IMG/VR virus record: IMGVR_UViG_3300034355_000520
Coordinates: 1-43,215 of that record
Length of the DNA: 43,215 bases
Strand: one strand, 5' to 3'
Origin: a virus
Shown here: positions 22,230-36,836 of the stretch, in pieces
Numbering within the stretch: the stretch's first letter is position 1
Layout of the letters: each line of letters begins with the position of its first letter
Made by a program: the position numbers and the translations under genes
The notes under the pieces: model-generated
Told to the model about the DNA's origin: nothing
What the model saw: the letters and a program-made list of their open reading frames with translations, nothing else
Database searches by the model: none

Positions 22230-22452
22230 GTGCCCGATCGCCCCGCTGTACAAATTGCCAAAACTCCACCTGCCCGGCTGCAAAATTGGCGAACGCCGCC
22301 AGTTGCAGAACCCCCGCGCCAATCGCCGCACGGCCTACCCACCGATGCCAAGGCTGCTCTGCCATTTCCCAGGCCAGAGCCCCCACAATCCACGCAATGA
22401 GGCCGACTGTGATTGCCAACGCCGCTTGTGTTTCGATTGGTAAGGTTGTCAT
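21898..22452 (-). CDS. Two-helix membrane protein, long overlapping frame
   Basis: 184 residues. The first about 75 contain two predicted membrane helices (AALAITVGLIAWIVGALAWEM and AIGAGVLQLAAFANFAAG), as in a holin. The rest is Gly/Arg/Ser/Cys-rich and looks like out-of-frame translation of the gene at 21837..22229. The ATG overlaps the stop of the one-helix protein upstream by four bases (ATGA). The natural protein may be shorter, joined to the neighbouring frame by a frameshift, or truly overlapping. Confidence 0.45.
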   Translation of the reverse strand: MTTLPIETQAALAITVGLIAWIVGALAWEMAEQPWHRWVGRAAIGAGVLQLAAFANFAAGQVEFWQFVQRGDRAHDTGSTAAEFITEGGHTIRVDAGTGRSATGIGYTSAVCPDLRCNGGSGGQGGFGDSTFTGVDGRLRRLHTGQRQESRPLASTSPRRRVCQCERCTCSPCLCEELQAAANR

Positions 22453-22652
22453 TGCTGAAACACCGTCCACGATAAAACGAATCCCACCGCAATGATCACA
22501 ATCGCCGCGGCTGAAGCGATTACCGGCCAAACTAAGGCCGGGCCGATGTATTTCAGAAGCTGCTCAACAGCATCACCAGACGCGCGAAAACGACTGTTGC
22601 CGAGGTTGCCCTCGATCTCCGAATCTTTGTCGTTGTCTGGTGGTTCTGTCAT
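22449..22652 (-). CDS. Small one-helix membrane protein, holin-like
   Basis: 67 residues: an acidic hydrophilic start (TEPPDNDKDSEIEG) and one C-terminal membrane helix (ALVWPVIASAAAIVIIAVGFVL), ending WTVFQQ. The start at 22652 was chosen over an upstream in-frame extension that covers the terminator hairpin. It is the first gene after a strong terminator and is coupled to the two-helix membrane gene. Holin or antiholin is plausible from size and topology, but there is no sequence proof. Confidence 0.55.
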   Translation of the reverse strand: MTEPPDNDKDSEIEGNLGNSRFRASGDAVEQLLKYIGPALVWPVIASAAAIVIIAVGFVLSWTVFQQ

Positions 22653-22758: not shown

Positions 22759-23166
22759 CTACCTCCCGGCAACCTCCCTCAGGAGACTGTCGAGCGATCC
22801 CTTCGCGTATCCTGTGCGGGTGATAGTCTTTCCGCTCGCGTCTGTCCACCTGAAAGCCGGGACATACGATGAGAACCGCTGGTAGACAATTTCAACAGGA
22901 AGTTCCCCCGCTGCCGCCACGTCAGCCTTGAAGGTCTGACATGGTCCGCACCATGTCTCACTGTGCACGTACAGCACAGGCTTAGCCTTTACTGCCTGCT
23001 CTTTGGGCGATTCTGGCTTTGGTGCTTCCAATGCCGCCACTCGTGCTTCGAGTGACTCCAGCCGCTTGATCAGCAGTTGCAGATCCGCAGACTCAGCAGG
23101 TGGTTTTTCGTCGATCATCGGCATTGTCAGCAGCGCCGCGAGTGTCATTCCAATGTGCCATTTCAT
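22759..23166 (-). CDS. Secreted thioredoxin-fold protein with coiled coil
   Basis: 135 residues. The N-terminus (KWHIGMTLAALLTMP) looks like a signal peptide or membrane anchor, followed by a coiled-coil segment (ADLQLLIKRLESLEARVAALE) and, from about 62, a thioredoxin domain: YVHSETWCGPC with the active-site pair Cys73 and Cys76, and Val-Pro103 as the expected cis-proline. The domain is compact, about 73 residues. It is translationally coupled (ATGA overlap) to the papain-like peptidase gene. Predicted role: exported disulfide exchange, perhaps keeping the peptidase's active-site Cys reduced or activating it. The pairing is inferred from linkage. Confidence 0.75.
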   Translation of the reverse strand: MKWHIGMTLAALLTMPMIDEKPPAESADLQLLIKRLESLEARVAALEAPKPESPKEQAVKAKPVLYVHSETWCGPCQTFKADVAAAGELPVEIVYQRFSSYVPAFRWTDASGKTITRTGYAKGSLDSLLREVAGR

Positions 23167-24011
23167 GCAAAGTACCCCCCTCCCTGTGACTGTCGATCGT
23201 AGTAGCGCTCCTGAGCCCGATCAGGCATCAGCACGAAGCAACCGAACGGCTCACCACGCCTCGCGAGGATTTGTTCGTAGCATCGCTGTGACATGTAATA
23301 ATACCCGTCGCCGTGCGAATTCCACACGCAGAGATACCATCGGCCTTGTACCTGCTCAGCCCAAATAATTTCGGTGGCGTGGCCACCACCGCCGGTCGGT
23401 AGCGTGTCCATCAGTCGCCGCCCGTTTAGGTTGGACCAGCGTACTGACCAGTATGTACCGATGTGCCCTGTACCGCCCGCAGCAACAGCCGCCAACATGC
23501 CCTCCCACGAAGGCAAGGGGCCGTGCTCGGTTACGTGCGATGAGACGATCTCGACTTTGCGGGCTGCCTGCTCAAACTGGCTGGCACTGCGATAGTATTG
23601 AGCGTAAGGCCAGTTTGCCTCTGTGGCCACTCCAGGCTTAACCCCAAGCCTTGGAATGCCCTCCGTCAGCAGCCGAACGCCGCTGTGCATCGATGTTCCA
23701 CTGTCTCTGCCGACGTATTGTGGCGACATGAGATATTCGGATGCGTTGTACGCGTACATTTCACTCAAGACCGGCATCGTGCGTCGCCCGCTCACCACCC
23801 ACGATCGATATTCCTCGCCGTTCGCAGTTGCGTTACCTTGGCAGTCGTTTCTTTGCTGTCGCTCTACCTGCATTACGCTTAGCGGACTGTTTCGCGGGTC
23901 TTTTAGGATCCGTTCGTAATCCTCGAAGTCGCCTGCGGAGACTTTCACGGTCTGACTCTGCCCTGCCCAGGCTATTTCGTCCGCGGTCGGTGTCAGCAGC
24001 TCACTTGGCAT
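23163..24011 (-). CDS. Papain-like cysteine peptidase (C1-like)
   Basis: 282 residues. QQRNDCQGNATANGEEY matches the papain active-site helix with candidate Cys57, GGGGHATEII gives His211 and CVWNSHGDGYYYM gives Asn231: the Cys-His-Asn order and spacing of C1 peptidases. No signal peptide is visible, so export would need a holin or partner. It lies between a secreted beta-rich protein and a secreted thioredoxin, inside the lysis-like block; no peptidoglycan amidase or muramidase is recognisable elsewhere. It could cleave cell-wall proteins or peptides of the host envelope. An alternative is a role in virion maturation. Confidence 0.65.
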   Translation of the reverse strand: MPSELLTPTADEIAWAGQSQTVKVSAGDFEDYERILKDPRNSPLSVMQVERQQRNDCQGNATANGEEYRSWVVSGRRTMPVLSEMYAYNASEYLMSPQYVGRDSGTSMHSGVRLLTEGIPRLGVKPGVATEANWPYAQYYRSASQFEQAARKVEIVSSHVTEHGPLPSWEGMLAAVAAGGTGHIGTYWSVRWSNLNGRRLMDTLPTGGGGHATEIIWAEQVQGRWYLCVWNSHGDGYYYMSQRCYEQILARRGEPFGCFVLMPDRAQERYYDRQSQGGGYFA

Positions 24012-24687
24012 TTGCGGCGTACCTCCGGATGAACTGCGCGTGTCCCGCTGCGGTCCATTTAATGCCGCCGAATGCTCCCTGTTCGGATTGCAGAAGCGGA
24101 GTGAATGCCTGCTTTCGCGCCTCCGTGTTTGCGGTCGCAAACCAATCCGCCGCGTCACTCTCACTTGTCACCAGCCCAGAATCGAGCCTGTCAGCCAAGT
24201 CTGCTTGGGCCTGTCGCCATGCCGATTCATACGCGCGAAACGCCTGAGCGACAGCGTCTTGCGGTCGCTCAGGCTCCGGGGATGGGTCTGCGCGTCCCAC
24301 CACGCGCAAAGCCACCCGTCGGACTTCAAGAGTTTCGGTCGCTGCTGATGGAAGGACGATCAATTCCACTTGCCCGGGGGCTGCAGCAGTGACAAGGTAG
24401 CCGTTGGTGCGGCTGATCTTTCGCCGCTCCAGCAATCCATTGCCGCCTGCGAATTTGCCTCGAATGACTGTTCCCTGCTGCTCCTGCTCAACCTCGACGA
24501 CGCCTGAGGGTGACGCGAGCACGTGTAACGGCAGGTCGCTTTCAATCAGGTAGATATCCTCGACGGAGAACGAGTCCACCCGCTCAGGCCGCACCGGTGG
24601 CGGTGGCGGTGGCACTGGCCGAGTCAGGTCCGGAAAGACAATCGGGCCATCCTGCAGAAGCAGGATGAGCAGCAGGAGTGCTTTCAC
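24001..24687 (-). CDS. Secreted Pro-rich protein with BACON-like domain
   Basis: 228 residues from the GTG at 24687, giving a signal peptide (KALLLLILLL), a Pro-rich linker (PPPPPP) and a beta domain (SFSVEDIYLIESDLPLHVLASPSG, GKFAGGNGLLERRK). The ILES/VLASP pattern reminds me of domains seen in Planctomycetes. The C-terminal third is helical (EARKQAFTPLLQSEQG). It overlaps the peptidase gene by 11 bases. A substrate-binding partner or inhibitor for the peptidase is possible; not proven. The upstream in-frame extension overlaps another gene and was rejected. Confidence 0.55.
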   Translation of the reverse strand: MKALLLLILLLQDGPIVFPDLTRPVPPPPPPVRPERVDSFSVEDIYLIESDLPLHVLASPSGVVEVEQEQQGTVIRGKFAGGNGLLERRKISRTNGYLVTAAAPGQVELIVLPSAATETLEVRRVALRVVGRADPSPEPERPQDAVAQAFRAYESAWRQAQADLADRLDSGLVTSESDAADWFATANTEARKQAFTPLLQSEQGAFGGIKWTAAGHAQFIRRYAANAK

Positions 24688-24689
24688 GA

Positions 24690-25139
24690 TCAGGCTCCCG
24701 CTGAGGCCACCAGCAACTCCGCAGCGGCTGCGGGCAGGCTGACCATTTGCGCAATGCTGTGATCTGCCAGCCGCTCGATTGACGCATCGTCGATCTGATA
24801 GCGTCCCAAGTCCGCGGGAATGCCGGACTGCTTCGCTCGCCGCTTCTCTGCCTGCATGCCGTCGCGGCAGCATTTTTTAATCCGCACACACAAGGCCTTG
24901 TGTTGCTTCCCCGAGGTCCGCGGGTTGCCGTGATGTTGCACCACTGACGGCTGGACGTCGCGATTGCCGCGGAGTTCGCGGCACTGCTTCACCCAGCCGA
25001 AAATTACCGGCAGAATGGTGGTAATCAACGTGATAATGGTCACAGGCTCAATTGCCACTGTCTTGCCACTGTCACTGACGGAAGTCAGCCGTGCACCGCA
25101 TTTGTTCGCGACTGCTTCTGCGTACTGCTTAGGATTCAT
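24690..25139 (-). CDS. Hypothetical protein with one membrane helix
   Basis: 149 residues. A start at the inner ATG (25139) gives NPKQYAEAVANKCGARL, then a hydrophobic segment (VTIITLITTILPVIFGWV, about residues 34-51), a Cys- and Lys-rich stretch (ALCVRIKKCCRDG) and a helical C-terminus (SIERLADHSIAQM). It resembles phage membrane proteins of the lysis region (holin class), but there is no strong match. It is the last gene before the secreted Pro-rich protein, and the stop lies three bases from that gene's start. Confidence 0.55.
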   Translation of the reverse strand: MNPKQYAEAVANKCGARLTSVSDSGKTVAIEPVTIITLITTILPVIFGWVKQCRELRGNRDVQPSVVQHHGNPRTSGKQHKALCVRIKKCCRDGMQAEKRRAKQSGIPADLGRYQIDDASIERLADHSIAQMVSLPAAAAELLVASAGA

Positions 25140-25171: not shown

Positions 25172-25216
25172 GCCACCACGGCCGCGGGAATGCTCTATTG
25201 TCGCCTCCGTGGTGGC
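25172..25216 (-). terminator. Hairpin overlapping the end of a small membrane gene
   Basis: A 10-bp perfect stem (GCCACCACGG with CCGTGGTGGC) with a 25-base loop, covering the last codons of the gene at 25195..25386, followed on the minus strand by GCGGATTTTCATT. Weak terminator or regulatory hairpin between the membrane genes. Confidence 0.4.
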
Positions 25217-25386
25217 GGTGGAGACGTTGGCAGTCCGGTGCGATCTGGTGGCAAGCATGGCCTGCCGGTCATGCGCTCCCATTTGTTTTGCTCGCGGGGC
25301 TGCTCTGTGACGCTCGCGATGTACACGACTCCGCATACAGTCGCGAAACCCGCTGCCACAAGCATCAGCGCGATCAGACATGTCAT
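25195..25386 (-). CDS. Small one-helix membrane protein with Pro/Arg-rich tail
   Basis: 63 residues: an N-terminal membrane helix (TCLIALMLVAAGFATVCGVVYIA), then a polar stretch ending PPPPRRRQ. It overlaps the preceding gene by four bases (ATGA), so the two are coupled. Small paired membrane proteins with a downstream peptidase suggest a holin or spanin-like pair; Cys at residues 3 and 18 gives no clear lipobox. Confidence 0.6.
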   Translation of the reverse strand: MTCLIALMLVAAGFATVCGVVYIASVTEQPREQNKWERMTGRPCLPPDRTGLPTSPPPPRRRQ

Positions 25387-25625
25387 CGCCGCACCTCGCA
25401 GCGCTTCGCGATTCGTGCAGCCTCGGCTCTAATCTCGTCGTCAATTTTCGCAAACAGGGCGTCTGTCTGCGCGAGTGCATCCGCGTCTGCGTCGGAAAAC
25501 TCCTGCGGATCTGGCCGCTTGCGATCCAGCCTGAGCAATTTGCTTAAAGCTTCCGCCAACAGAATCACAATGCCGCCGATTCCGAGCAGCATCAAGAGAC
25601 TGCCCAGCCATTCCTGCCAACTCAT
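25383..25625 (-). CDS. Holin- or spanin-like small membrane protein
   Basis: 80 residues from an ATG with the strong ribosome-binding site GGAGGTGGCGAA. Topology: SWQEWLGSLLMLLGIGGIVILLAEAL forms a membrane helix, followed by an acidic coiled-coil-like segment (DADADALAQTDALFAKIDDEIRAE). Short helix plus periplasmic helical tail is the topology of an inner-membrane spanin or a class III holin. It is the first gene of the lysis-like block. Confidence 0.6.
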   Translation of the reverse strand: MSWQEWLGSLLMLLGIGGIVILLAEALSKLLRLDRKRPDPQEFSDADADALAQTDALFAKIDDEIRAEAARIAKRCEVRR

Positions 25626-36474: not shown

Positions 36475-36664
36475 CGCCGTGGTCCCTCACTGGCATTCTG
36501 GCTGTGTGCACCCGCACCGTTCGCGGGCCTCGATAGGATGAACCAACCGGCACGCCTGCGGATCGTCGCATGGCCTCCGCGATCTCCTGCAGGGTTGGGT
36601 CTCCGGGCTTCCTGTCGCCGCCGTAGGGCAATGGTGGCAGTGGCTTAATCGACTTCAATTGCAT
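36467..36664 (-). CDS. Small Pro-rich hypothetical protein
   Basis: 65 residues, ATG with GGAGACCAGTAAAG. QLKSIKPLPPLPYGGDRKPGDPTLQEIAEAMRRSAG and a basic end (SSYRGPRTVRVHTARMP). Overlaps the second CsrA-like gene by 20 bases. Unknown. Confidence 0.5.
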   Translation of the reverse strand: MQLKSIKPLPPLPYGGDRKPGDPTLQEIAEAMRRSAGVPVGSSYRGPRTVRVHTARMPVRDHGDG

Positions 36665-36836
36665 CTTTACTGGTCTCCCTATCAATGAGTTCAGATCGAA
36701 GAATTTCCACACTCAGCGGGGCGACGATGTCGATTGACACACGCCCTGGGCTGATTTCGCGGATTGTGATTTTAGCCACGGTTTCGGAGCCGTGGAACAG
36801 TTCCACGCCTTCGCCGGGCTTGCGGGTTAGTCTCAT
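36645..36836 (-). CDS. CsrA-like RNA-binding regulator, copy 2
   Basis: 63 residues. RLTRKPGEGVELFHGSETVAKITIREISPGRVSIDIVAPLSVEILRSEL shows the CsrA pattern: LTRK.GEG start, RVSIDIVAP, and the L-R-S-E-L near the end matching the GGA-binding arginine. It is more divergent than copy 1, with a longer loop (ELFHGSETV). Two CsrA-like proteins in one phage suggests a heterodimer or two specificities. Confidence 0.75.
   Translation of the reverse strand: MRLTRKPGEGVELFHGSETVAKITIREISPGRVSIDIVAPLSVEILRSELIDRETSKDAIEVD

Follow-up and report, generated by a model that had tools for sequence, protein, structure and literature searches.

The window, that is, the whole analysed stretch of 43,215 nucleotides (IMG/VR virus record IMGVR_UViG_3300034355_000520, positions 1 to 43,215), carries a conserved lysis-like cassette of planctomycete phages. 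Its core is three overlapping genes on the minus strand, running from 24687 to 22759, which encode an anchored protein, a papain-like cysteine peptidase and a predicted exported thioredoxin; these coordinates agree with an earlier note made from the sequence alone. A protease and an exported thioredoxin beside holin-type proteins, with no recognisable peptidoglycan enzyme, suggest lysis through the protein of the envelope. On balance we lean to reading the block as a lysis cassette: a holin-released protease and a thioredoxin exported beforehand would act against a disulfide-rich protein wall.

Organization of the locus

The features of the block and its borders are as follows.

25383..25625, minus strand: small membrane protein, 80 aa, found in the closest relative only
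25195..25386, minus strand: small membrane protein, 63 aa, found in the closest relative only
24690..25139, minus strand: 149-aa protein with one hydrophobic segment, at a holin-like gene position, conserved in window-type cassettes
24001..24687, minus strand: first gene, exported or anchored protein, 228 aa, GTG start
23163..24011, minus strand: middle gene, papain-like (C1A fold) cysteine peptidase, 282 aa, leaderless
22759..23166, minus strand: third gene, putative exported thioredoxin, 135 aa
22680..22758, minus strand: GC-rich terminator-like hairpin followed by a T run, judged by folding energy against shuffles
22449..22652, minus strand: small one-TM protein just past the terminator, weakly conserved in L004, L005 and L015

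The first gene overlaps the protease gene by 11 nt, and the protease and thioredoxin genes share an ATGA overlap. The hairpin after the thioredoxin gene has a folding energy of -38 kcal/mol (z = -2.4; 5 of 200 shuffles were equally stable) with U5 behind the stem, which matches the strong terminator described in the earlier note. Several small membrane proteins flank the block among the window ORFs, also as described there. Because the 149-aa protein is kept in nearly all window-type relatives, we assign it to the block on sequence conservation; it gave no family match in Pfam and PHROG searches and is a candidate holin by its gene position.

The gene order in the window is a DNA methylase gene, the block, tail-fibre-like genes, a ParB-like protein, terminase, portal and a capsid-protease fusion. 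The head-maturation protease of this phage is a separate one, fused to the capsid protein. The cassette precedes the terminase genes and stands between the early genes and the head genes, both in the window and in the prophages of genomes G218 and G736.

Papain-like protease

The AlphaFold2 model of the middle protein, built on an alignment of 22 relatives, shows a papain fold (pLDDT 89.9, pTM 0.90). Foldseek matched it in the PDB to cathepsins, ficin and Der p 1 (best E 1.4e-8, TM to target up to 0.67). The best structural matches in BFVD were uncharacterised or "Peptidase C1A" proteins of uncultured Caudovirales (A0A6J5RCA6, TM 0.70); the same fold is therefore present in phage genomes, and the sources consulted give neither function nor gene context for these proteins. 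Gln52 (oxyanion), Cys57, His211 and Asn231 were invariant in 36 of 36 sequence clusters. The oxyanion Gln stands at -5 relative to the catalytic Cys, and in papain it stands at -6. The model, the Foldseek matches and the invariant residues bear out the Cys-His-Asn papain-like peptidase named in the earlier note, and we are confident that the middle gene encodes a protein predicted to have the C1A fold of the papain family; endopeptidase activity is likewise predicted.

The window protease had no match in Pfam, PHROGs or PDB profile searches, and the protease of one relative matched the phrog_16701 peptidase at 1.8e-7. No leader was found in the aligned relatives. A C-terminal tail (ERY-DR-GGGYFA) is conserved in window-type proteases, yet it was modelled as disordered. 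Relatives of the protease or thioredoxin were not found among cultured phages, and a pattern scan of a GTDB contig collection for protease relatives was also negative, although a later genome profile search did find them. Two loci (L106 and L206) encode papain-like proteins with no thioredoxin partner and were rejected as cassette members. In another (L059:9236-11206) the protease is split over frames, by decay of the copy or by sequencing errors.

Exported thioredoxin partner

The third protein consists of a hydrophobic leader, a coiled coil (residues ~29-48), a linker and a short thioredoxin domain, with WCGPC at 72-76 and a VPA cis-Pro-like motif at 102-104. In an alignment of 21 relatives W72, C73, P75 and C76 were invariant, as were WC[GA]PC and VPA. 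Family matches were weak: PF13899 gave E=1.4e-4 and 22.3 bits, below the curated cut-off of 27, and the profile matched solved thioredoxins at E=3e-4. Among the relatives, most have a match to Pfam thioredoxin models at E <= 0.1, the best being 2.9e-7. The leader of the window protein is itself weak, but a clear signal peptide, membrane anchor or lipobox is present in its relatives, and in the window-type proteins the coiled coil follows the leader. The exported WCGPC thioredoxin of the earlier note is thus supported by the motif and these weak matches, and its export is predicted from the leaders of the relatives.

The active site varies among relatives (WCGPC, WCEPC, NCPPC, SCGPC, WCAPC and others), and so does the mode of anchoring. 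It means that the thioredoxin function of the partner is conserved, rather than one frozen operon. The layout of leader, oligomerising N-terminus (a coiled coil here), linker and C-terminal thioredoxin domain is the same as in the exported oligomeric reductases of DsbC/ScsC type, but the likeness is one of layout only, since the window domain is shorter, is phage encoded and has no family-level sequence match to them. In one locus (L028, equal to L014; 673-1708) two thioredoxin-like genes stand in tandem behind the protease, the first with YGSPQS and no CxxC.

Anchored protein of the first gene

The AlphaFold2 model of the first protein shows a hydrophobic leader, an Ig-like beta-sandwich (residues 39-130) and a C-terminal three-helix domain. 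The earlier note had proposed a signal peptide and a BACON-like domain; the leader and the beta-sandwich are present, but the BACON label does not hold, because the protein has no family match in Pfam or PHROG, no profile matches it, and the model is a generic Ig-like sandwich with three helices. The helical part is what occupies the first-gene position in most relatives, including divergent ones. Both protease subfamilies described below repeatedly have a membrane-anchored helical protein encoded immediately ahead of the protease, also in cassettes that have no Ig-like part.

A chagasin-type (I42) inhibitor was considered for this gene and rejected. Foldseek gave several weak chagasin-type matches to the Ig-like domain (E 2e-3 to 3e-2) among many other Ig-fold matches, and its loops SPxG, FAGG and LPxG recall NPTTG, GxGG and RPW of chagasin, but the PF09394 search and the PDB profile search were negative. 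The reading is further weakened as the domain is missing in divergent cassettes.

Linkage across phages

Scans of IMG/VR with the protease and thioredoxin gave 58 loci, and a broader protease profile gave 80 more. For the linkage set we kept the 124 loci whose protease was nearly complete and was followed by 450 nt or more of sequence; some contigs are counted more than once. Dereplication at 90% identity left 36 clusters. For loci found via the protease, linkage to a thioredoxin was not a selection criterion. An exported CxxC thioredoxin lay downstream of the protease in 30 of the 36 clusters, nearly always directly adjacent; in L126 a methylase gene stands between the two. So the linkage is conserved in other phages and is far beyond chance. 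The remaining clusters (6/36) have an exported protein or lipoprotein with no thioredoxin domain at this position. Such a partner was seen in about 10 phage contigs, where the protease is intact and its catalytic Cys is kept. Pattern scans with the single L105 and L112 proteins found almost nothing.

The protease tree splits into two subfamilies along a very long branch with full support; identity between them is less than 30%, and the thioredoxin partner occurs in both. Window-type proteases keep 45-65% identity across phages with portals of 16-22% identity, and these phages use different types of terminase and capsid (GpA-type, Terminase_6N, Mu gpT-type, capsid-protease fusion). By these comparisons the cassette appears to cross phage lineages whose head genes are unrelated. 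In 14 genomes, which were chosen via the cassette, the protease, thioredoxin, anchored protein and 149-aa protein were among the most widely shared families.

Hosts and chromosomal cassettes

A profile search covered 392 genomes from the phylum of a Schlesneria assembly (Planctomycetota). In genome G218 the cassette is inside a complete prophage on a 3.0-Mb contig. Viral contigs G003, G010 and G014 have the window-type cassette, and their terminase, portal and capsid show 36-53% identity to the corresponding proteins of this prophage. The Planctomycetota genome G736 has three protease copies on an 8.4-Mb contig, and at least one of them belongs to a prophage that also has holin-like, anchored, terminase and portal genes. 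In G736 a secreted trypsin-like protease (Trypsin_2, PF13365, E 1.9e-9) follows the protease in place of the thioredoxin, and the partner of another copy is a lipoprotein of this kind (L218:8410-9270 and the G736 copies L211, L216). The trypsin-like protein and the thioredoxin-less partner proteins have a CPGG-CP C-terminal tail in common. A short tail of this kind, CPGG[VM]CP...RRGLFG or similar, was noticed on the exported partner in L037, L194-L204, L218 and others. Five further loci (L208, L209, L210, L212, L213) have the protease followed by an exported thioredoxin.

In two other Planctomycetota genomes, G345 (L111/L114:14750-18315) and G307 (L112/L116-L117), the contigs exceed 5 Mb and the complete five-gene cassette is surrounded by bacterial genes, with no phage structural genes found within ~15 kb on either side. 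It means that virion genes are not needed for its retention. The stand-alone cassette is either a prophage remnant or a domesticated lysis module, and domesticated lysis modules are known for some gene transfer agents. The protease was present in 10 of 170 genomes of the family of G345. A further Planctomycetota assembly, G766, has a window-type cassette on a 10-kb contig (DUF1353, 149-aa-like, anchored, protease and CGAC thioredoxin genes), which might be a binned phage. As control, 249 genomes from the phylum of a gammaproteobacterial assembly contained no cassette, and only one generic papain with no thioredoxin.

Several cassette members thus have hosts in Planctomycetota, and the link to Planctomycetes suggested in the earlier note is strengthened by these chromosomal cassettes and by YTV genes: cysteine-rich YTV wall proteins are encoded in G218, G307 and G345. 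PBP transpeptidases are also encoded in these three genomes. The window's own host is probably a planctomycete, by indirect assignment. The capsid protein of the window was uninformative for this purpose, as its best cellular matches are contigs of gammaproteobacterial, Sumerlaeota, desulfobacterial, acidobacterial and Schlesneria assemblies; the cassette was absent from the profiled stretches of four of those contigs.

Holin and endolysin content

In two relatives (L048, L038) a protein of 55-57 aa encoded two genes upstream of the protease belongs to Pfam Phage_holin_10 (PF23987), with E 8e-18 and 2e-17, far above the cut-off. Other cassettes have small membrane proteins at the holin place with no family match, and the small TM proteins of the window likewise matched no Pfam or PHROG family.

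Among the Pfam families listed for the 75 window ORFs (the best 25 families per scan, where an unlisted family would score worse than 1.7e-3), there was no amidase, lysozyme, transglycosylase, M15, M23, CHAP or NlpC/P60. The same hydrolase families were absent among the Pfam matches listed for ~190 non-redundant proteins of 13 relatives, where in the weakest case an unlisted family would score worse than 1.7e-6. No canonical endolysin family was among the matches listed for the 42 proteins of the G218 prophage. This is in agreement with the earlier note, which had seen no peptidoglycan-cutting enzyme. That note had also named three results that would speak against its idea, namely models lacking the expected folds, linkage that is not conserved, and a separate endolysin; we looked for all three, and neither the fold models, nor the linkage, nor the families listed gave such a result.

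Proposed lysis mechanism and its alternatives

We infer from the gene content that the block serves lysis, and propose the following substrate, redox role and order of events. In the cassette the lytic enzyme would be preceded by small membrane proteins of holin type and by a helical protein anchored in the envelope. The papain-type endopeptidase has no leader, so it should build up in the cytoplasm, and the exported thioredoxin would be placed in the envelope beforehand. Opening of the membrane would give the protease access to the envelope. The thioredoxin would break, or would have broken already, the disulfide cross-links of a protein wall, and it may also keep the protease cysteine reduced; the protease would then digest the loosened wall.

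According to PMC2754498, in a passage citing Liesack 1986, the planctomycete wall is a sacculus of protein that contains disulfide bonds. This wall is rich in cysteine-rich YTV proteins (PMC8567305) and withstands boiling SDS (PMC3422733). It is such a disulfide-bonded protein wall, together with the YTV genes of G218, G307 and G345, that leads us to propose loosening by thioredoxin and digestion by protease. The data suggest dismantling of a protein envelope as the burst route of these uncultured phages, several of which are planctomycete prophages. Of the protease-driven lysis or entry proposed in the earlier note, lysis has gained from the gene content, and entry has found no support. A bolder idea is that reductive proteolysis is a new mode of lysis, with a thioredoxin and a holin-released papain-type protease, no peptidoglycan hydrolase, and a reductase exchangeable for a secreted serine protease; we offer it tentatively and with some doubt.

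Since PBP transpeptidases are encoded in the same genomes as the YTV proteins, a peptidoglycan target is a serious rival. In that case the papain-like enzyme would be a hidden endolysin that cleaves peptide cross-links in the peptidoglycan of planctomycetes, with an accessory role for its partner, thioredoxin or trypsin. The protease does occupy the endolysin gene position, and papain-clan cysteine peptidase domains occur in known endolysins (mycobacteriophage N4/N5, PMC3314691). We regard this as unlikely, because the fold matches C1A endopeptidases, with Cys-His-Asn, and not NlpC/P60 or CHAP, the protease has no wall-binding domain, and both kinds of partner, disulfide reductase and serine protease, are protein-directed.

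Functions other than lysis, such as envelope modification during infection (receptor removal, superinfection exclusion) or processing of phage proteins, would fit the tail-fibre-like genes adjoining the cassette, the block standing alone in two bacterial chromosomes and a protease with no export signal. They are improbable given the holin family gene within the cassette of two relatives and the absence of another lysis enzyme among the families listed, and the phage already has its separate head-maturation protease.

The main role that the earlier note gave to the thioredoxin, as a switch which only keeps the cysteine protease reduced outside the cytoplasm within a lysis cassette, agrees with the need of such a peptidase for a free thiol, with export of the thioredoxin but not of the protease and with the ATGA coupling, but it is quite improbable, as the trypsin-like protease takes the thioredoxin's place in G736 and the ~10 contigs that lost the thioredoxin keep the catalytic cysteine. 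As the partner varies between a disulfide reductase, a serine protease and a mere anchor, lysis with a partner acting on envelope protein explains the cassettes better than obligatory activation of the papain enzyme.

Comparison with known systems

Neither this cassette nor lysis by planctomycete phages was found described in the sources and literature searched. Like the holin-endolysin-spanin cassettes of dsDNA phages, the block has membrane-protein genes beside a leaderless lytic enzyme between early and head genes, and one gene in each of two relatives scores above the cut-off of a Pfam holin family. Unlike them, it has a papain-type endopeptidase in place of a peptidoglycan hydrolase and an added exported thioredoxin (or trypsin-like protease), and no spanin pair was recognised. 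The mycobacteriophage endolysins N4 (RipA-like) and N5 (C39-like) also use a papain-clan cysteine peptidase for lysis, as proposed here, but theirs are domains of modular peptidoglycan endolysins, whereas the present enzyme is a stand-alone C1A fold. The pseudomurein endoisopeptidases PeiW and PeiP of a Methanothermobacter phage and prophage are alike in being cysteine peptidases which lyse a host with a non-standard wall; they differ in the wall itself, in having wall-binding repeats and in having no thioredoxin partner.

For decades it has been debated whether protein or peptidoglycan bears the load in the planctomycete wall. Since a dedicated lysis cassette is shaped in evolution by the structure that keeps the cell intact, the substrate of this one would directly reveal that structure. 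The cassette would also serve as a phage-derived marker for planctomycete viruses and would be a source of lytic enzymes for a phylum in which genetic tools are scarce. If true, the proposal would give an example of lysis by a protease plus a disulfide reductase.

Other genes of the neighbourhood

In several relatives a DUF1353 gene lies directly upstream of the cassette (L069:1634-2026, L217:6706-7113), and its product is possibly another lysis-associated protein. Among the early genes of the window, a CsrA-like regulator (36645-36836) was assigned by reading its sequence, and PF02599 is listed for this gene at 1.5e-8 in the Pfam scan of the window ORFs.
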